The translations under genes and the position numbers were made by a program. Under the pieces are notes generated by a model that searched no databases, was not told the DNA's origin, and saw only the letters and a list, made by a program, of their open reading frames with translations. This document shows positions 8,500 to 16,163 of a stretch of DNA of 18,581 nt, in pieces. This stretch comes from Gallionellaceae bacterium UBA5126. Lineage in GTDB: Bacteria > Pseudomonadota > Gammaproteobacteria > Burkholderiales > Gallionellaceae. The stretch lies in contig DHYQ01000111.1 of the NCBI GenBank assembly GCA_002414205.1, positions 4,664 to 23,244 of the forward strand, given 5' to 3'. Numbering within the stretch: position 1 is the stretch's first letter; every line of letters begins with the position of its first letter.

Positions 8500-8590
8500 G
8501 GAGAGGTGGATGAGTGGTTTAAGTCGCACGCCTGGAAAGCGTGTTCAGGGTAATACCCTGACGGGGGTTCGAATCCCCCCTTCTCCGCCA
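8500..8590 (+). tRNA. tRNA-Ser (anticodon GGA)
   Basis: A complete 91-base class II tRNA. The acceptor stem is GGAGAGG (8500-8506) with CTTCTCC (8580-8586), including one G-U pair. Discriminator G and an encoded CCA follow at 8587-8590. The anticodon stem is CACGC (8527-8531) with GCGTG (8539-8543), and the loop gives anticodon GGA at 8534-8536, reading UCC and UCU. The long variable arm CAGGGT-AAT-ACCCTG confirms serine. The T arm is GGGGG-TTCGAAT-CCCCC. Its 3' end appears to be the integration site of the element to the right. Confidence 0.97.
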
Positions 8591-8601: not shown

Positions 8602-8686
8602 TAAGCGTTCCTAGTAATTCCAGCAAACCCGCACCGAATAACGGTTAGCGGGTTTTTTGTTGCCTAAGCGTTCCTAGTAATTCCAG
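8602..8686 (+). repeat. 22-bp direct repeat pair around the tRNA terminator
   Basis: A 22-base sequence beginning TAAGCGTTCCTAGTAA and ending TTCCAG occurs twice without mismatch, at 8602-8623 and 8665-8686, a period of 63 bases. The hairpin terminator lies between the copies. I found no third copy at the right end of the element. Confidence 0.85.
8625..8658 (+). terminator. Rho-independent terminator after tRNA-Ser
   Basis: AAACCCGC (8625-8632) pairs with GCGGGTTT (8648-8655), with an inner ACCG/CGGT helix, and runs into a T-tract to 8658. It ends the tRNA transcript and lies inside the proposed element. Confidence 0.8.
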
Positions 8687-8775: not shown

Positions 8776-10017
8776 ATGCCCCTGACTGATCTGGACGTAA
8801 AAAACGCCACCCCAAAAGAAAAACTCCACAAGCTGGCAGACGGCCACGGCCTGAATTTGTGGGTTTTCCCTAATGCTTCCAAGTATTGGCGCTTGAAGTA
8901 TCGCCATGCCGGGAAGGAAAAAACCCTTGCCTTGGGTGTGTACCCTGAAATAAGCCTGAAGGAAGCCCGGAAGCTGGCAGGGGAGGCGCGCAAGCAACTG
9001 GCCGTTGGGATAGACCCCAGCGCCGCCAGACAAGCCGCCAAGCGCGTGGAGCGCGTGGAAAGAATCAACCCCTTTGCCACGATTGCCCGCGAGTATCACG
9101 CCACGAAATCCCCCGAATGGACAGCCGGGCACGCCAAGCAATGGCTGGTCAACATGGAACGCCATGCCTTCCCGTTGATTGGGGATTGCGGCATTGCTGA
9201 CATTGAACCCATGCAGGTGCTGAAAGTGTTGCGCAACATGGAAGCCAAAGGCACGTTTGAAACCCGCGACCGCCTGAACCAGACCATAGGGGCCGTGTTT
9301 AAATACGCCATTGCCACCGGGCGGGCCAGATACAACCCGGCGGCGGATATTCGCACCGCACTGGCCACCGCCCCCAAGGCGCAAAACTTCGCCTGTATCC
9401 CCCATGAGGAACTGCCCGAATTCCTGCACCAGTTGAACCGCTACCACGAACGGGGGCACACCTCCCTGATTGCCATGACTGCACTGCGCTTGCTGATGCT
9501 GACGGCCACCCGTACCAGTGAAGTGCGCTTTGCCAAGTGGCAGGACTTTGACCTGGACAAAGGCTATTGGACGATTCCCGAAGAGCAGCAAGGGCGCAAG
9601 GGTAAGCAAGGCAAGCGCAAAGCCCACACCGTCCCGCTATCGCGTCAAGCCGTGGCCTTGCTGCGCGCATTGCATCCCCTGACCGGACACCGTGAGCAGG
9701 TATTCCCAAACCGCAACGACCCCACCAGAGTGATTACCGAAAACACCGTTTTGAAAATCATTGAGGGTATGGGCTACAAAGGCAGGATGACCGGCCACGG
9801 GTTTAGAAGTCTGGCCCGCTCCATGCTGGCCGAAATGGGCTACCGGCGCGAGGTACTGGAAGCCATGCTTTCGCACGCCATTGAAAACACCACCGAAGCC
9901 GCCTATGTGCGCACCACCTACCTGAAAGAACGCTGCGACATTATGCAGGTGTGGGCGGATCATCTGGATGCGGTAGCGGCTGGCAACATCATCCCGTTGC
10001 GACGTGAGGCGGCCTAG
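8776..10017 (+). CDS. int: P4-type tyrosine integrase
   Basis: A 413-residue site-specific recombinase of the phage P4/CP4-57 type, which inserts and excises the element. The N-terminus (MPLTDLDVKNATPKEKLHKL, then ADGHGLNLWVFPNASKYWRL and TLALGVYPEISLKEAR) is the arm-binding DUF4102 domain, residues about 1-90. A core-binding SAM-like domain follows (about 95-190). The catalytic domain has all expected residues: R246 (TATRTSEV), K282 (KAHTVPLS), H341-G-F-R344, H367 (LSHAIENT) and the nucleophile Y377 (AAYVR). Length and motifs are normal, so it should be active. It sits next to its tRNA target in the usual orientation, transcribed away from the tRNA. Two GGGGGTA sites lie upstream and may let it repress itself. 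Confidence 0.97.
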   Translation: MPLTDLDVKNATPKEKLHKLADGHGLNLWVFPNASKYWRLKYRHAGKEKTLALGVYPEISLKEARKLAGEARKQLAVGIDPSAARQAAKRVERVERINPFATIAREYHATKSPEWTAGHAKQWLVNMERHAFPLIGDCGIADIEPMQVLKVLRNMEAKGTFETRDRLNQTIGAVFKYAIATGRARYNPAADIRTALATAPKAQNFACIPHEELPEFLHQLNRYHERGHTSLIAMTALRLLMLTATRTSEVRFAKWQDFDLDKGYWTIPEEQQGRKGKQGKRKAHTVPLSRQAVALLRALHPLTGHREQVFPNRNDPTRVITENTVLKIIEGMGYKGRMTGHGFRSLARSMLAEMGYRREVLEAMLSHAIENTTEAAYVRTTYLKERCDIMQVWADHLDAVAAGNIIPLRREAA

Positions 10018-10769: not shown

Positions 10770-10797
10770 TTGACACGCAAAGTAGTTCTGGTATAAT
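10770..10797 (+). promoter_or_regulatory. Perfect-consensus sigma70 promoter of the AlpA-replication operon
   Basis: TTGACA (10770-10775), 16-base spacer, TATAAT (10792-10797). Both hexamers match consensus fully, which is rare. The start site should fall near 10804, giving a leader of about 100 bases before alpA. Without repression it should be very strong. Confidence 0.9.
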
Positions 10798-10905: not shown

Positions 10906-11235
10906 ATGCTCAAAGAACAACAAAACGCGCCCGCGCTTGTCCCATTCTCCCCAGTATCGCCCCCACGCCTGATCCGCCGCCCTGAAGTTGAACACCTCAC
11001 TGGATTGACACGTAGTGGGATTTACGAACGCATGGCACGATCTGGCTTCCCAAAACCCGTAGAGCTGGGGGCGAATTCTTGCGCATGGGTGGAATCTGAG
11101 GTTAACCAATGGATTGCCGAACGGATTGCAGCGGGACGGCGGGACGTTGGGGGCAATTCGCCTACCCTGGACAACGGGCAGAAACGGCGCGGAAGGCCGC
11201 CCAAAGGGGGAAAGACTGGGGAGGGCGCGCAATGA
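10906..11235 (+). CDS. AlpA-family phage transcriptional regulator
   Basis: A 109-residue protein whose residues 21-75 (RLIRRPEVEHLTGLTRSGIY, ERMARSGFPKPVELGANSCA, WVESEVNQWIAERI) form the AlpA winged-helix domain. AlpA and P4 Vis proteins activate or repress satellite promoters and can act as excision factors for P4-type integrases. The C-terminal tail has KRRGRPPKGG (93-102), which contains an AT-hook core (RGRP), uncommon in this family. A ribosome site AAGGA (10892-10896) lies 9 bases before the ATG; a TCCTT at about 10873 could pair with it. The stop overlaps the next start (ATGA 11232-11235). It is first in the operon, so it probably controls its own promoter or that of int. Confidence 0.93.
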   Translation: MLKEQQNAPALVPFSPVSPPRLIRRPEVEHLTGLTRSGIYERMARSGFPKPVELGANSCAWVESEVNQWIAERIAAGRRDVGGNSPTLDNGQKRRGRPPKGGKTGEGAQ

Positions 11236-11585
11236 TGACGCTTTACTACCAGCTACGTTTTGCGCTACAGTTCGGACAGGTGCTTAGAAAACACCTCAAA
11301 CAGCGGAATCCGCACCCGACAGCCCAGCGGTTTTTTTACGTCCATGGTTTCTCCTATGGGCGGGATGTGGCAAGCAATACAAGACCCGCAAGGGGAATCC
11401 TGCCAGCCTTCTGTTTGAGGTTTTCTAACGTCCCGCCCGCCCGCGTAGAAACGGGTAAAACTCAAACAGGAGTCGCAACCATGCGTAAAAATCACGCCCG
11501 TGCTTTGGCACGTCTAGCCCTTTCCCGCGTTTCCATCATCCGCGCCCGTGTTGTCGCATCCAGCCGCAAAGGGGGGCGGCAATGA
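11232..11585 (+). CDS. Small basic ORF overlapping the leader RNA; Icd/Kil-like position
   Basis: 117 residues from MMTLYYQLRFALQFGQVLRK. It overlaps alpA by ATGA at its start and the CHC2 gene by ATGA at its end. Much of it lies across the folded RNA at 11358-11438, so codon content may be dictated by RNA structure. A second, better start is ATG 11481 with AGGAG 8 bases upstream, giving a 34-residue very basic peptide (MRKNHARALARLALSRVSII...). That start is the one the antisense segment would mask. In P1 and P4, small cell-killing ORFs (icd, kil) sit in this position behind C4/CI RNA; sequence similarity to them is not evident to me. The frame is probably translated, but which start is used, and the function, are unknown. 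Confidence 0.5.
   Translation: MMTLYYQLRFALQFGQVLRKHLKQRNPHPTAQRFFYVHGFSYGRDVASNTRPARGILPAFCLRFSNVPPARVETGKTQTGVATMRKNHARALARLALSRVSIIRARVVASSRKGGRQ
11284..11303 (+). promoter_or_regulatory. Upstream pairing site A of the leader RNA
   Basis: TTAGAAAACACCTCAAACAG is complementary to segment B (11411-11428) along 18 paired bases with a 2-base bulge. It sits about 55 bases before the folded RNA and 28 bases before a T7 tract. Confidence 0.6.
11310..11337 (+). terminator. Weak candidate attenuator between site A and the folded RNA
   Basis: CCGC (11310-11313) can pair with GCGG (11327-11330), which runs directly into seven T residues. The stem is only four pairs with a 13-base loop, so alone it is poor. 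An alternative pairing, GCGG-AAT-CCGC, competes with it, and pairing of site A could shift the balance. Confidence 0.3.
11358..11438 (+). ncRNA. C4-like antisense regulatory RNA (candidate)
   Basis: GGGCGGGATGT (11358-11368) pairs with ACGTCCCGCCC (11428-11438) in an 11-pair helix with one G-U. It encloses a domain of about 59 bases with an inner GGCA (11369-11372)/TGCC (11401-11404) stem. The single-stranded arm 11411-11428 (segment B) complements both an upstream site A (11284-11303) and a downstream site C (11456-11472) that contains the AGGAG of ATG 11481. The size, closing helix and double complementarity match C4 of P1/P7 and CI RNA of P4, which are processed from the leader of the operon they silence. 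It would lower expression of the small ORF and the coupled primase and helicase genes. The family assignment is by hand folding only. Confidence 0.6.
11456..11472 (+). promoter_or_regulatory. Downstream pairing site C covering a Shine-Dalgarno
   Basis: The core AAAACTCAAACAG (11457-11469) pairs with segment B with one bulged G. It runs directly into AGGAG (11468-11472), 8 bases before ATG 11481. Pairing would cover the start of the ribosome site. Confidence 0.6.
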
Positions 11586-11956
11586 GCAGCGCCTATTACG
11601 TTGCCCAGCAAGTCAACAAAGCCCGACAAGCCCAAGCCGTGCGCAACGCCCAGCACGCCCAAGCCCAACGGCAAACGCAATCCCGCTTTGATCGTTCCCG
11701 CTTGCCTAACCCGGTGGAATACTACGCCGCCCAAGGCATCGCCCTTAAAGGCCAGGGCCAATGGCGTAATGCCCTTTGTCCCTTCCACGAAGACAGCAAA
11801 CCCAGCCTACGCGTGCGCATTGAAAACGGCGCATTCTGCTGTATGGCGTGCGGGGCCAAGGGCGGCGACGTGCTGGCCTTCCATATCAAACGCCACGGCC
11901 TGAGCTTCAAAGCGGCGGCGATTGCCCTTGGTGCGTGGAAAGGCGGTTCACGATGA
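11582..11956 (+). CDS. CHC2 zinc-finger protein (primase zinc-binding domain)
   Basis: A 124-residue protein with a CHC2 zinc finger: C66-P-F-H69 (NALCPFHEDSKPSLRV) and C87-x2-C90 (CCMACGAKGGDV), ending in LAFHIKRHGLSFKAAAIAL. In DnaG-type primases this domain reads the template and starts primers. Here the catalytic Toprim part is absent from this protein and appears to be supplied by the 809-residue protein two genes downstream. The first 40 residues are glutamine- and alanine-rich, probably a helical linker. It overlaps both neighbours by ATGA, so its translation depends on the regulated small ORF before it. It belongs to the element's replication machinery. Confidence 0.92.
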   Translation: MSSAYYVAQQVNKARQAQAVRNAQHAQAQRQTQSRFDRSRLPNPVEYYAAQGIALKGQGQWRNALCPFHEDSKPSLRVRIENGAFCCMACGAKGGDVLAFHIKRHGLSFKAAAIALGAWKGGSR

Positions 11957-12165
11957 AGCAGCCCATTAAATTACTACCCTGCCCCTTTTGCGGGCGTGCG
12001 GTGGAAGTCATGGCAGACGATAACGGCGGCTCACGCAACCATCCGCACCCGGTTTACTGGATTGAATGCCGCACGTTCATTTGCGACGGCCTAAAGACCG
12101 GCAAATTCACCAGCCAAAGCGACCTTGCCGAATACTGGAATAACCGCGCAGGGGGTACGCAATGA
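11953..12165 (+). CDS. Lar-like zinc-ribbon protein
   Basis: 70 residues beginning MKQPIKLLPCPFCGRAVEVM. The N-terminal LPCPFCG and the C-terminal LAEYWNNRAG are the conserved ends of Lar/restriction-alleviation-type small proteins, named for the Rac prophage protein that dampens type I restriction. The second metal pair is unusual: after C10-x2-C13 come only WIECRTFICDG, two cysteines four residues apart rather than CxxC. Zinc binding by a complete ribbon is therefore uncertain. ATGA overlaps link it to the CHC2 gene before and the helicase gene after. Protection of the element from host restriction is a reasonable guess; a helper role in replication is equally possible. Confidence 0.75.
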   Translation: MKQPIKLLPCPFCGRAVEVMADDNGGSRNHPHPVYWIECRTFICDGLKTGKFTSQSDLAEYWNNRAGGTQ

Positions 12166-14591
12166 CCCAGCCCACCCTTGAGCAAGTGAAGCACTACGCG
12201 GCGCAGCTTGCCCGCTATGCCACGATTGCCAGCGTAGATAGCAAAGCCCTGCACACCTACAAAACCCCCGAAGGTGAACCGCTTTACTGGCGCATCCGCC
12301 TGAAGTGCAGCCGCAACGGTGATAAGTTCATCCGCCCCTTTATGTGGAACGGCACGGCCTTTGAAAACAAGGAACCACCCGCCCCACCGGAAGGCAAACC
12401 GCTGTACGGTTTGGAGCGGCTGACTACACACCCCGAAGCCGTGGTGATTATCACGGAAGGCGAAATAGCGGCGGACGCATTGAACCGGCTGTTTAGCCAA
12501 TTGGACATTTGGGAGAAACCCAACTTTGTGGCCCTGACCAGCGGCGGCGCACAAAGTGCGAAGGCGGCGGACTGGCAACCACTGGCCGGGCGGACTGTTT
12601 ACGTTTTCCCAGATAATGACGATCCGGGGGCGCAGTATGGCCTGGACGTGGTGCAAGCCTTGCAAGGGATTGCCCATAGCGCGGCGGTGCTGGATATTGC
12701 TCCGTTGAACCTGCCCCCCAAGGGTGACGCGGTGGAATGGTTGCAGGACGGTGGAACGCTGGGCGGCCTGATGGAACGGATGAGCGCCGCCGATAATGTG
12801 GCCACACCTGACAACACGCAACCCGCCCCAGTTCCTGCACCCAACACATCCGACAGCATCGCCACACCTACCCCACCCGGCGACGGTGAAGCGTCGTTTT
12901 GCGAGTACGGCAGCGGGCGTTTCGAGCTGGCCGCGCATGGTGTGTCCTACATTGGCACAGACAAGGACGGCAACGAAGCCGCGCCGCGCTGGCTTTGTTC
13001 GCCCTTGCGTGTGGTAGCCATGACACGGGACGCCAAAAGCGGCGAATGGGGGCGGCTGCTGGAATGGTTTGATGAAGACAATGTGCGGCATCAATGGGCT
13101 ATGCCCATGGAGCTACTGCAAGGCGACGGCGGCGACGTGCGGCGCGAACTGGCCCGGCTGGGGCTGTCTATTGCCCCCAGCAAGGCGGCGCGTGATTTGC
13201 TGGCCTCTTATGTGCAAGTGTGGCCGGTAGATTCGCGGGCGCGGTGTGTGGAGCGTCTGGGCTGGCATGGGGCGGTGTATGTCACCCCGGATGAATCCAT
13301 CGGGCAGGATGATGAAATAGTCGTTTTCCAGAATGCGCACGCAATCGAGCCAGCCTTTGCGGTATCGGGCACGGCGGCACAATGGCGCGATTCTGTGGCA
13401 GCACTGGCGGCGGGTAATTCGCGGCTGGTGTTTGCCCTGTCCGTGGCCTTCGCCGGGGCGCTGGCTGACGTGGTGGGCGAAGATTCGGGCGGCTTTCATT
13501 TGCGCGGCGGTTCATCATCCGGCAAAAGCACGGCACTGAAGGCGGCGGCCTCCGTGTGGGGCGACCCGGCCACTTATCCCCGGCTATGGCGGGCAACTGC
13601 CAACGGTTTGGAAGGGCTGGCCTCATTGCATAACGACGGGCTGCTGATTCTGGATGAACTGAGCCAGATAGACCCAAGGGAAGCGGGCGAAGCGGCCTAC
13701 CTGCTGGCAAATGGTCAAGGCAAGGCGCGTGCATCCCGTAGCGGTACGGCCCGGCAATCGGCGCGCTGGCGGCTGCTGTTTTTGTCTGCGGGTGAAGAAT
13801 CCCTAACCGCCCTCATGGCGCGAGTAGGCAAGAAAGCCAACGCCGGGCAGGAAATCCGCCTTGCTGACGTTGAAGCCGACGCGGGGGCGGGCATGGGGGC
13901 ATTCGAGGTGCTGCACCATCAACCCAGCCCGGCGGCGCTGGCCTTGGCCGTCAAGGATGCAGCAACCCGCTATCACGGCGCGGTGGGTGTGCAATGGCTG
14001 CGCCGGATCGTGGCAGACCGCACCACACTGGCGGATTCTACCGAGGCACGCATCCAGCAATTCGTGGCGGAATGTGTCCCCGCAAATGCGGCGGGGCAGG
14101 TGTTGCGTGTGGCAAGGCGTTTTGCCTTGGTTGCGGTAGCTGGGGAGCTGGCGACGCGCTACGGCCTGACCGGCTGGCCGGAAGGTGAAGCCCGGACAGC
14201 GGCGAAAAAATGCTTTACCGCATGGCTGGAAGCCTTCGGGGGGTGTGGCAACCGCGAAGAGCGCGCCATTCTGGAGCAAGTGCGGGCGTTCTTCGAGGCG
14301 CACGGGGCCAGCCGTTTTGAGGATATGAACGCCAAAGAGCAACGTATCCCGAACCGGGCGGGCGTTATCCGCCATACGGCGGACGGCACGCCGGAATATC
14401 TGGTTTTCCCCGAAGCCTTCAAGCGCGAAGTCTGCCAAGGCTTTGACCAAAAGGCCGCAACACAGGCACTAATGAGCGCCGGATGGATAACCCCCGGCAA
14501 TGATGGGAAAGCATCGCAAAAGCCGCGCATCGCTGGCATGGGGCCGACCCGTTGCTATGTCTTTAACGGGAAAATGTGGGCGGGAGAATAG
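12162..14591 (+). CDS. Toprim-DUF927 primase/helicase of the element
   Basis: An 809-residue replication protein. Residues about 90-195 form a Toprim domain: E99-G-E101 (IITEGEIAADAL) and D151-N-D153-D154-PGAQYG, the metal-binding residues of primases. A proline- and threonine-rich linker follows (about 210-235). The DUF927 region runs from about 245 to 560 with Walker A G449-GSSSGKST457 (K455) and Walker B LLILD498-E499-LSQID. The C-terminal part (SAGEESLTALMARVGKKANA, then helical to the WITPGNDGKASQKPRIAG end) is typical of the family. It should unwind DNA and, with the CHC2 protein, make primers at the element's origin. It lies between the two inverted iteron blocks, the second starting within 50 bases of its stop. 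Last gene of the ATGA chain. Confidence 0.93.
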   Translation: MTQPTLEQVKHYAAQLARYATIASVDSKALHTYKTPEGEPLYWRIRLKCSRNGDKFIRPFMWNGTAFENKEPPAPPEGKPLYGLERLTTHPEAVVIITEGEIAADALNRLFSQLDIWEKPNFVALTSGGAQSAKAADWQPLAGRTVYVFPDNDDPGAQYGLDVVQALQGIAHSAAVLDIAPLNLPPKGDAVEWLQDGGTLGGLMERMSAADNVATPDNTQPAPVPAPNTSDSIATPTPPGDGEASFCEYGSGRFELAAHGVSYIGTDKDGNEAAPRWLCSPLRVVAMTRDAKSGEWGRLLEWFDEDNVRHQWAMPMELLQGDGGDVRRELARLGLSIAPSKAARDLLASYVQVWPVDSRARCVERLGWHGAVYVTPDESIGQDDEIVVFQNAHAIEPAFAVSGTAAQWRDSVAALAAGNSRLVFALSVAFAGALADVVGEDSGGFHLRGGSSSGKSTALKAAASVWGDPATYPRLWRATANGLEGLASLHNDGLLILDELSQIDPREAGEAAYLLANGQGKARASRSGTARQSARWRLLFLSAGEESLTALMARVGKKANAGQEIRLADVEADAGAGMGAFEVLHHQPSPAALALAVKDAATRYHGAVGVQWLRRIVADRTTLADSTEARIQQFVAECVPANAAGQVLRVARRFALVAVAGELATRYGLTGWPEGEARTAAKKCFTAWLEAFGGCGNREERAILEQVRAFFEAHGASRFEDMNAKEQRIPNRAGVIRHTADGTPEYLVFPEAFKREVCQGFDQKAATQALMSAGWITPGNDGKASQKPRIAGMGPTRCYVFNGKMWAGE

Positions 14592-14858: not shown

Positions 14859-16163
14859 ATGGCTGACAACATTTTAGCAGCATCGGGGGCTATCGCGTCC
14901 CCCGCCCTTCACCCTTCCGCCCTGTCATTCGATTGGCGGGCCGTGGCGTCAGTCGCGCTTATCGCGGCACTTGCCATGCTCATTATTGCGTGGAAGCGCA
15001 AAGGCAACGACCAAAACGCCCATGCGTGGATTTACTACATTGGCGCGGTGTTGGGCTTGTGTGGTGGGGCGATGGGCATTTATTACGGGCTGTACAAGTC
15101 CGAGGGCTTGACCAGTGCAATCGTGGGCGCGTCTTTCGTGGTTATGGCCCTCTATCGGGCGGTGGGCATGGATACCGCCGTACACCAAGCCAAACAAGGG
15201 CAATACGGCGCGGCGGGAATCGGCGCGGTGTTGTTGTTGCTTTGCTGGCTGATTGTCTATGCGGGCGGATCGTTTGAAGGCCAAGCGGATGGCGCGGCCA
15301 AGCTACAGGATGCGGCGGCAACCTCGCCGGAGGTGCGCACCTTGGATGCTCAAATAACCTTGGCAGCCGCGAACGTGGCGAAGCTGGGGCAATTTGCCGA
15401 CGCATCCGCCGCGAACGAATCAAGCCGGAAACTGGCCGACATTAACGCCCGTCTGGAATCCGCCCGCAAAGAGTTGGCAAACTGCCCGCCCGCTATCGTC
15501 ACCCGTTGCGTGAATCCAAAATCCGAAGCCGTCCACGCCTTGGAAGCGGCGGCGCTTGCGGCGGGTGCGTACACAGTGGGGGCGGGTGATTTACAAGCCG
15601 CCCGCACCGTATTGGCAGACTTGGAAAGCAAACGCGCTGCGATGATTAAAGGCGGTGCGGTATCCGTTGGGAAGGTGGGCAAAGATGCTGAGTTTGTCGC
15701 ATGGGCAACCGGTAAACCCGTAGAGGAAGCCAGCCGTATTCTTTGGATGGTGATTGTAGGGGTGCTGGATGTTGCCTCTACCCTTGCGCACCTGTACGCC
15801 GCCCTATCCCGCCCGCGTGAGGATTACATCATCGGGCAATGCGTGAATCAGGTTGACGTGTTGCTGCGCAATGGCTTTACACAGGCTGAAGTGTTCCACA
15901 TGCTGGGCAATCGCGGCACAGTCCCGCAACTTACGGCAGTGGAGGACAGGGACGACGTAAAAAAGCAAATTGAACCGGTTGCCATGCGCCCCTTGGAACC
16001 GGTGGACTTGCGCCCAGCGGAACCGGTAGCCATGCAAACCGGCGACACTTGCCCCGATTGTGGCGATACGTTTGCAAAGACGCATCATAAGCAAGTTTAT
16101 TGCCCGGCTTGCCAAGTCAAACGGCGGACATTGAAAAACGGCATGCACGCTAAACCGGCCTAA
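14859..16163 (+). CDS. Five-TM membrane protein with C-terminal zinc ribbon, function unknown
   Basis: 434 residues. Four membrane segments lie near the N-terminus (about 28-45, 57-79, 84-103, 117-136) and a fifth at about 294-316. Residues 143-280 form an alanine-rich helical, probably coiled-coil, region with one cysteine pair (NCPP...TRCVN) that could be a disulfide if outside the membrane. After the last TM come a linker with an 8-residue repeat (EPVAMRPL, EPVDLRPA, EPVAMQTG; 372-395) and a zinc ribbon, C398-x2-C401 and C415-x2-C418. I do not recognise the family. It is a cargo gene behind the right iteron block and not part of the ATGA chain; a weak AGAGG precedes the ATG. Superinfection exclusion or signalling are only guesses. 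Confidence 0.85.
   Translation: MADNILAASGAIASPALHPSALSFDWRAVASVALIAALAMLIIAWKRKGNDQNAHAWIYYIGAVLGLCGGAMGIYYGLYKSEGLTSAIVGASFVVMALYRAVGMDTAVHQAKQGQYGAAGIGAVLLLLCWLIVYAGGSFEGQADGAAKLQDAAATSPEVRTLDAQITLAAANVAKLGQFADASAANESSRKLADINARLESARKELANCPPAIVTRCVNPKSEAVHALEAAALAAGAYTVGAGDLQAARTVLADLESKRAAMIKGGAVSVGKVGKDAEFVAWATGKPVEEASRILWMVIVGVLDVASTLAHLYAALSRPREDYIIGQCVNQVDVLLRNGFTQAEVFHMLGNRGTVPQLTAVEDRDDVKKQIEPVAMRPLEPVDLRPAEPVAMQTGDTCPDCGDTFAKTHHKQVYCPACQVKRRTLKNGMHAKPA

Follow-up and report, generated by a model that had tools for sequence, protein, structure and literature searches.

An sRNA-Xcc1-family RNA with two flanking complementary sites precedes a primase operon: a candidate self-silencing module built like C4 of P1 and CI of P4

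Introduction

Leader-derived antisense RNAs with two targets are a known kind of regulator. The C4 antisense RNA of phage P1 acts in trans, and C4 is also present in phage P7. In the annotation of P1 the order of features is a1, b1, C4, a2, b2, icd and ant1. CI of P4 is a processed antisense RNA, and IsrK of Salmonella (Gifsy-1) is described as structurally homologous to P4 seqA, with the processed RNA STnc1160 and the small ORF orf45, coupled to anrP, behind it (PMC4825925). The product of anrP is presumably an antirepressor.

In the literature consulted, the RNA family sRNA-Xcc1 is presented as virulence-linked or is left unassigned. Its founding member, from X. campestris, gives a Northern band of ~100 nt, and the ends mapped by RACE lie 88 nt apart (PMC2996969). 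Later papers cite control of sRNA-Xcc1 by HrpG/HrpX in X. campestris, place it in integron cassettes that carry symE, use it in plant-target prediction, and cite work in which both bacterial and plant targets are predicted (PMC12444791, PMC12189769). Members in Xylella were detected by RNA-seq (PMC12189769), a member in EHEC has abundant RNA-seq reads and little coverage by ribosomes (PMC5331693), and a strain with 15 copies led to the proposal, on that ground, of a role in virulence (PMC8780938). Within the available portions of the literature naming the family, we found neither a description of flanking targets nor an account of sRNA-Xcc1 as a two-target antisense RNA; co-mentions of 'Xcc1' with 'phage' or 'prophage' exist in that literature, and none was found with 'antirepressor'.

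The copy described here precedes a primase gene. It lies in an 18,581-nucleotide stretch of DNA from Gallionellaceae bacterium UBA5126, the whole of which is referred to as the window; the tRNA gene, the genes from the integrase to DUF927, and the promoter, leader and RNA features described below are on the plus strand. Judged from its sequence, the region 11284–11472 is very probably a self-silencing module that is built like C4 of P1 and CI of P4, uses an RNA of the sRNA-Xcc1 family, and gates the primase operon that follows.

Results and discussion

The element and its genes

The window contains an integrative element adjoining a tRNA-Ser (GGA) gene (8500–8590, identified by tRNA search), which is the putative integration site. 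The gene for a tyrosine integrase with an arm-binding domain (8776–10017; Pfam PF13356, PF22022 and PF00589) starts ~185 nt 3' of the tRNA gene. Between the two is a perfect 22-nt direct repeat (8602–8623 and 8665–8686), whose copies are possibly integrase arm sites. Neither a right-hand attachment repeat nor a second att copy was found in the window, and the right end of the element is therefore unplaced. A two-gene DUF4297-HerA anti-phage system (3087–6074; NCBIfam NF042945, 555 bits, and NF042944, 996 bits; PADLOC DUF4297 and HerA) is located between polA and this element.

The integrase gene is followed by a gene for an AlpA-type excisionase/regulator (10906–11235; PF05930, E 2e-18). Upstream of alpA there is a sigma-70 promoter sequence, TTGACA-16-TATAAT (10770–10797), in which 12 of 12 consensus bases are present; a scan at a looser threshold gave one promoter in 1 kb, with 0.6 expected in shuffles. 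This is the probable promoter of the leader transcript. The leader itself, between alpA and a 34-aa ORF (11481–11585), is 245 nt long. The ORF is placed as icd is in P1, belongs to no family in Pfam or PHROGs, and overlaps the next gene by the ATGA at 11582–11585, the coupling that the initial annotation had described. That next gene encodes a CHC2 zinc-finger primase-type protein (11582–11956; PF01807, E 4.9e-14), and is followed by genes for a Lar-like small protein (11953–12165; PF14354, E 2.4e-9) and a DUF927 replicative helicase/primase (12162–14591; PF06048, E 2.5e-98; phrog_1139 DNA primase, E 4.5e-113). For a 434-aa protein encoded 3' of the DUF927 gene (14859–16163), searches at E up to 0.001 gave no match in any of Pfam, PHROGs, NCBIfam and PADLOC.

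Family assignment of the RNA

The RNA in the leader matches the Rfam model of sRNA-Xcc1 (RF02221) at 11359–11445 over the full model (positions 1–87 of 87) with 70.8 bits (E 2.2e-11), the gathering (curated) score being 53. The structure of the model, a 9-pair closing stem with two hairpins, is present in the window copy. The initial annotation had expected a C4-like RNA, to be sought with the C4 model (RF01695), and had counted the lack of a hit among the grounds for giving up that reading. The C4 model indeed finds nothing in the window at E up to 5, and the match to RF02221 explains why. By model score the RNA is thus a member of sRNA-Xcc1 and not of C4, and C4 membership is rejected on this basis. 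The isrK (RF01394) and int-alpA (RF02996) models do not match the window either.

Known C4-type RNAs show the reverse pattern. RF01695 scores P1 C4 at 68.8 bits and P4 CI at 74.9 bits, with RF02221 listed for neither. RF02221 scores above its curated score in 16 of 16 other sRNA-Xcc1 loci checked, and none of these 16 is matched by the C4, isrK or c4-a1b1 models at curated scores. In Rfam, C4 and c4-a1b1 share the clan CL00128, and RF02221 has no clan. In a phylum-wide model search of 398 genomes, with at most 10 candidates scored in each, RF02221 was found in 58 (40 of them above its curated score) and C4 in 62 (60 above). In this sample sRNA-Xcc1 is nearly as common as C4. It is seen in phage contigs as well as in many bacterial genomes, often before antirepressor genes.

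One copy of RF02221 was found in the genome to which the window belongs. The same genome also has a C4 RNA (RF01695, 68.5 bits; G000:C93:22299-22382), which indicates that C4 and sRNA-Xcc1 modules coexist in one host. Among three loci from the same genus, L242 and L243 score above the curated score and L244 (46.7 bits) below it. L244 (1501–1627, minus strand) is a relative of sRNA-Xcc1 in which the tip of the domain-I hairpin is larger by ~40 nt.

Structure of the RNA and its two flanking targets

The body of the RNA (11358–11438, from the RF02221 match and the predicted fold) is a three-way junction. Its closing helix consists of 11 contiguous pairs (11358–11368 with 11428–11438), as had been read from the letters alone, and the fold bears this helix out. 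The 84-nt RNA 11357–11440 has a predicted energy of -34.2 kcal/mol, compared with -26.3 ± 3.2 for shuffled sequences (z = -2.48), and 1 of 200 shuffles is as stable. Domain I contains a motif, AATACAAGACCCGCAAGGGGAA (11376–11397), that is conserved in the comparison of loci. The segment proposed to pair with the flanking targets, here called B (11411–11428), is divided between two structural contexts: the half that pairs with the right target lies in the loop of hairpin 2, and the half that pairs with the left target in the junction strand.

The left target, A (11284–11303), corresponds in position to a1-b1 of P1 and seqA of P4. Two pieces of the RNA, CTGTTTGAGGT and GTTTTCTAA, match 11293–11303 and 11284–11292, respectively; they overlap by 2 in the RNA and give a chained score of 18, and none of 1000 dinucleotide shuffles of the flank scores as high. 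The complementarity between 11411–11428 and this site, already part of the initial annotation, is therewith upheld. The left half of A is located in the loop of a small predicted hairpin (11278–11296), and hairpins like it are readable in many related leaders.

The right target, C (11446–11469), corresponds to a2-b2 of P1 and seqC of P4. CTGTTTGAG pairs with 11461–11469 and TTTCTA with 11446–11451 (TAGAAA), for a chained score of 15 that is reached by 1 of 1000 shuffles. This target had been placed at 11456–11472. Its pairing with B holds, but its extent needed correction: the site is split over 11446–11469, and the left half, TAGAAA, had been missed. An alternative register for the left half uses AAAA at 11457–11460 together with 11461–11469, with one bulged G. 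The site ends within the AGGAG (11468–11472) that precedes the ATG at 11481, in agreement with the contact originally described, and the distance from the end of C to this ATG is 11 nt.

With both strands counted, the window contains CTCAAACAG without mismatch at exactly three places: A, C and, as the complement, B. When B segments from 165 other loci are tried on the window, none reaches 18 on A and one reaches 15 on C, among the matches listed. As positive controls, P1 and P4 were scored in the same way, giving 14 for A and 15 for C in P1, and 15 for A and 16 for C in P4; in both phages C ends 10 nt before the ATG. The window displays two features of a C4-type arrangement, bipartite complementarity both up- and downstream of the RNA and a site C beside the ribosome-binding site of a small overlapping ORF.

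Co-variation of the pairing segment with its targets

Two sets of loci were compared. The first consists of loci with the exact domain-I motif, from viral contigs and species genomes, plus the window copy. It includes at least 203 distinct cores, of which 196 have 220 nt downstream; these form 166 clusters, 163 with enough upstream sequence. The B segment of each locus was compared with 250 nt upstream and 150 nt downstream of its own RNA, with the B segments of other loci as the control. Downstream energies from RNAduplex separate own from swapped segments poorly (-25.1 versus -21.9 ± 5.5), and chained exact matches were used as the score instead. Since this score was designed after inspection of loci in the first set, the second, model-found set is the cleaner test.

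Own segments of the first set match their flanks far more often than swapped ones. Among the matches listed, A scores at least 13 in 138 of 163 loci with the own segment and in 347 of 3244 swapped comparisons, and at least 16 in 55 of 163 and 15 of 3244, respectively. For C, a score of at least 13 is obtained in 101 of 166 loci compared with 152 of 3302 swaps, again among the matches listed. The same tendency holds against close relatives. The own B exceeds the mean of the five nearest relatives in 149 of 163 loci upstream (12 worse; p 6e-25) and in 139 of 166 downstream (18 worse; p 8e-23), and it exceeds even the best of the five in 104 of 163 upstream and 86 of 166 downstream, with the reverse seen in 30 of 163 and 39 of 166 (all among the matches listed). 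Because the own segment outperforms both swapped segments and those of the nearest relatives, B, A and C change together. B itself is highly variable, with 129 distinct 9-mers of the pairing segment in 166 loci among the matches listed.

The clearest single illustration of this is the same-genus locus L242. Its leader follows that of the window almost line for line, but all three pairing segments differ and their complementarity is kept: the RNA has CTTTGTGAG, with CCCACAAAG upstream and CTCACAAAGGAG downstream, where the window has CTGTTTGAG, CTCAAACAG and CTCAAACAGGAG, respectively.

The model-found set consists of 29 loci besides that of the window and was not selected by the motif, although the search motif is present in 7 of these loci and 4 (L307, L308, L317 and L321) share an RNA core with the first set. 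Here B was taken as 40 nt cut from the end of the RNA, and the downstream stretch begins 8 nt inside the match. A scores at least 14 in 25 of 29 loci with the own segment versus 46 of 812 swaps, and C at least 13 in 15 of 29 versus 39 of 812. The 22 loci that are free of the motif give 18 of 22 versus 27 of 616 for A and 10 of 22 versus 29 of 616 for C, at the same thresholds.

Covariation within the RNA

Covariation in the helices was assessed with a hand-set structure on 31 rows (the 29 model-found RNAs, the window and L242). Changes on both sides of a pair occur in 48 cells, compared with 19.7 in shuffles, and affect 13 of 19 pairs, compared with 8.1 in shuffles. When the partner is slid by one column, the covariation score falls from 0.277 to 0.129 or 0.095. 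The closing helix, 87.4% paired, and hairpin 2, at 83.9%, account for the covariation, and alignment is poor in the outer part of hairpin 1 (64.5%). A direct test of the stem in the first set gives at least 8 pairs in 87 of 165 loci with the own strand versus 314 of 1637 with swapped strands, a modest effect among the matches listed. On a MAFFT alignment of 74 leaders, RNAalifold detected no covariation and only 3 pairs, all of them invariant; misalignment of the 5' arm is the probable reason.

The invariance of domain I in the first set follows from the use of the motif as the search pattern. In the model-found set a core resembling ATACAA...GGGAA is largely kept, with a variable tip. The RNA match varies in length between 83 and 93 nt among relatives.

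The initial annotation had looked to homologues for compensatory changes in the helix and in the three pairing segments, and both kinds are present. Its functional analogy with C4 and CI is supported by the co-variation of B with its targets (166 and 29 loci, among the matches listed), and further by terminators after A, start codons after C, and the same layout in P1 and P4.

Downstream genes and subgroups

Among the 97 listed loci in which C scores at least 13, the chosen ORF starts 5–13 nt after C in 65; of the rest, 13 start before the end of C, 2 at 0–4 nt, 1 at 14–25 nt and 16 further away. When only ATGs at distances from -4 to 25 nt are counted (69 of the 97 loci, among the matches listed), the median is 9 nt, with quartiles of 8–10.

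ORFs were picked after the RNA in 165 loci; 152 have at least 60 aa, and 150 were scanned after omission of one duplicate and one pick apparently out of frame. Some other picks also look out of frame (e.g. L216, L218 and L227), so the family counts are lower bounds. Pfam domains, which are not mutually exclusive, include Bro-N in at least 34 of the 150 listed ORFs, P22_AR_C in at least 18, Rha in at least 13, KilA-N in at least 12, AntA in at least 11, and P22_AR_N and ORF6N in at least 8 each. The PHROG 'anti-repressor Ant' (phrog_245) is found in at least 50 of 150, a count of this one family and so a lower bound for antirepressors. SymE is found in at least 1 of 150. XAC0095 is found in at least 25 of 150 overall; genes of this family follow the RNA in loci of Xanthomonas, Rhodanobacter, Lysobacter and Luteimonas (e.g. 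L185, L190 and L198).

A CHC2 primase follows the RNA in 1 of the 150 ORFs scanned, that of the window itself, among the matches listed. Conversely, no sRNA-Xcc1 was found in 10 regions around CHC2 homologues. Four of these 10 regions (L290, L294, L295 and L299) have the int-alpA RNA (RF02996), possibly a third RNA module with the same role. One such element (L255/L299) also has a C4 RNA on the same strand, ~1.2 kb upstream of its CHC2 gene. This single case suggests that the RNA module is exchangeable between elements of this type.

The arrangement with two targets is not universal. In Lysobacterales, a grouping assigned by hand, A is present in 31 of 32 loci and C in 4 of 32, among the matches listed; copies linked to XAC0095 in this group are perhaps an A-only form of the module. 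Four cassette-like loci were scored (L102, L121, L017 and L084), with A in none and C in one. In both groups the mode of action may be limited to termination, or may be a different one. The four belong to an sRNA-Xcc1-like subgroup in which B is nearly conserved and the RNA sequence is followed by an apparent integron attachment site (L102, L112, L121, L002, L005, L016, L017, L038, L054, L067, L068, L084, L085 and L087).

Proposed mechanism and alternative readings

The arrangement suggests the following course of events. Transcription from the promoter before alpA would pass through target A, the terminator and the RNA in turn, and the RNA would be released from the leader as in the founding member of the family. 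The loop of hairpin 2 and the junction strand would then pair with A on new transcripts and favour a stop at the T-tract, and pairing with C would occlude the ribosome-binding site in front of the 34-aa ORF, thereby blocking the coupled CHC2, Lar and DUF927 genes. With the RNA present, the integrated element would not replicate; AlpA, encoded upstream of A, would escape. The outcome would be an integrated element immune both to its own replication and to a second copy.

Termination is, as modelled, the weakest of these steps in silico. The window has a terminator-like sequence (CCGC...GCGG followed by T7; 11310–11337), read directly from the letters, and the T7 tract noted in the initial annotation is present at 11331–11337. 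A and C are present, and the T7-tailed hairpin between A and the RNA is a candidate for the terminator that P4 has there, but it is weak in this copy: it has 4 pairs, and its predicted occupancy is 0.001 with A free and 0.007 with A blocked. The minimum-energy fold of the leader contains a competing hairpin, GCGG-AAT-CCGC (11303–11313), a possible antiterminator. Elsewhere the terminator is more evident. Among the matches listed, 107 of the 136 loci that score at least 13 for A have an intrinsic terminator no more than 60 nt downstream of it, versus 13 of 680 shuffled regions; a stricter count (92 of 161 versus 27 of 805 shuffles, among the matches listed) points in the same direction. Blocking A in silico raises the mean occupancy of the terminator from 0.55 to 0.69 in these 107 listed loci, with an increase of more than 0.1 in 38 and a decrease of more than 0.1 in 16.

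Since the occupancy in the window stays below 0.01 even with A blocked, the block of translation at C may dominate here. A stronger version of this view would have the RNA act only on the ribosome-binding site at C, with A and the T-tract as evolutionary remnants in this copy. The four-pair hairpin, with almost no predicted occupancy whether A is free or blocked, and the intact C would agree with control of translation alone. However, A is a better match than C (18 versus 15), and the 3' part of A together with the terminator (11297–11344) shows 89.8% identity, over 48 query bases, with the stretch of the Haemophilus phage Aaphi23 leader that precedes the phage's own sRNA-Xcc1 and ant gene. 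This identity suggests selection, and a purely translational function seems rather unlikely.

A second alternative is a switch confined to the leader, in which B pairs with either A or C of the same transcript and no free RNA acts in trans. A is at most 75 nt before the RNA and C within ~30 nt after it on one transcript, and all of the evidence from complementarity would fit intramolecular pairing equally well. Against this, C4 of P1 acts in trans. In addition, Northern blotting and RACE show the founding member of the family to be a discrete RNA of 88 nt (PMC2996969), members from EHEC (PMC5331693) and Xylella (PMC12189769) are seen in RNA-seq, and processing also yields the antisense RNA CI of P4 (PMC4825925), in which the layout is the same. 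An exclusively cis-acting device is therefore considered improbable.

It is much harder to reconcile the data with a third view, in which sRNA-Xcc1 regulates virulence genes of the host or genes of plants in trans and the flanking complementarity is secondary. The control by HrpG/HrpX and the bacterial and plant targets predicted in cited work speak for this (PMC12444791, PMC12189769). However, the pairing segment is highly variable and, among the matches listed, fits its own flanks better than the segments of the nearest relatives do, the opposite of what would be expected if the targets were conserved host genes. The occurrence of the family in phage contigs and bacterial genomes, often before antirepressor genes, also argues against a primary role in virulence, which we consider very improbable.

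Finally, that the region is the coding sequence of a longer protein, in a 158-codon frame (11109–11585) that crosses the RNA in the reading frame of the 34-aa ORF and is open in both the window and L242, is hardly credible, as the downstream frame is closed in 83 of 129 loci among the matches listed, the RNA match varies between 83 and 93 nt, the helices covary and an ATG led by a Shine–Dalgarno sequence follows C. There is a modest excess of loci whose downstream frame is open to the 5' end of the RNA (46 of 129, versus 27 and 25 for the other frames, among the matches listed), which counts in favour of coding.

Implications for the sRNA-Xcc1 family

Self-silencing through two flanking targets, with the RNA acting on both, remains the preferred reading of the window. 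Extended to the family, the best reading is that sRNA-Xcc1 is a silencer of the C4/CI type with a different first domain, and the comparison of loci suggests that many of its members are immunity switches of phages and similar elements. A variable segment that differs from one element to the next would confer on each an immunity specificity of its own, and this is likely to be the general role of sRNA-Xcc1.

A bolder proposal, which we advance tentatively and would not yet back over its alternatives, is that sRNA-Xcc1 constitutes a second RNA architecture for superinfection immunity, a fixed scaffold whose hypervariable specificity segment co-evolves with two self targets. Newcomers of the same specificity would be silenced by resident copies, and copies in chromosomes, in integron cassettes or without an ORF would be captured immunity cassettes rather than regulators of virulence.

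These readings offer a candidate, testable function for an RNA family that was described in 2010 and is now part of Rfam and of genome annotation. One genome paper treats sRNA-Xcc1 as a possible virulence factor (PMC8780938), and another paper predicts plant targets (PMC12189769). If the proposed function is correct, many of the annotated sRNA-Xcc1 copies point to prophages and other mobile elements, the specificity of immunity can be read straight from the sequence of the variable segment, and target prediction should begin with the flanking 250 nt. Control of the P1/P4 type (target, terminator, RNA, target) would then be a general module in which the RNA part has been exchanged, and which appears to guard replication genes in an AlpA-DUF927 element.

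Comparison with known systems

The window shares with other sRNA-Xcc1 copies the full-length match, the three-way junction and the domain-I motif. Where the family has been presented as virulence-linked or unassigned, the copy in the window precedes a primase gene. Target A and a terminator are readable, too, in the leader of a symE-linked copy from X. hortorum (L124).

IsrK/STnc1160 resembles the window in its seqA-type leader, which is followed by an RNA and a small coupled ORF, although the isrK model (RF01394) does not match. The int-alpA RNA (RF02996) belongs to a different family from the RNA of the window, though it occurs near CHC2 homologues.

C4 of P1 has the same overall architecture, consisting of a closing helix and two hairpins, with the parts that pair with the targets in the loop of hairpin 2 and the junction strand. 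Its bipartite targets likewise lie on either side, and a small ORF (icd) overlaps ant1, the gene behind it. In sequence, too, the leader of P1 (GCGG...CCGC...GCGGTATTTTT) looks like that of the window (GCGGAATCCGC...GCGGTTTTTTT). However, domain I of C4 is a different, longer hairpin with an AATACAA...GGGGAA motif. The gene controlled by C4, ant, is of the antirepressor type that is found after many copies of sRNA-Xcc1.

CI of P4 silences a primase-carrying replication operon in an integrating element with an excisionase/regulator, a terminator follows seqA, and seqC overlaps the ribosome-binding site (mechanism: PMC4825925). A 65-aa ORF follows seqC in P4. CI differs in being an RNA of the C4 family (74.9 bits), and the primase of P4 is of the alpha type, whereas the window has CHC2 and DUF927 proteins. 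The position of the RNA is like that in P4, preceding the CHC2 and DUF927 genes with the integrase gene and tRNA-Ser upstream.
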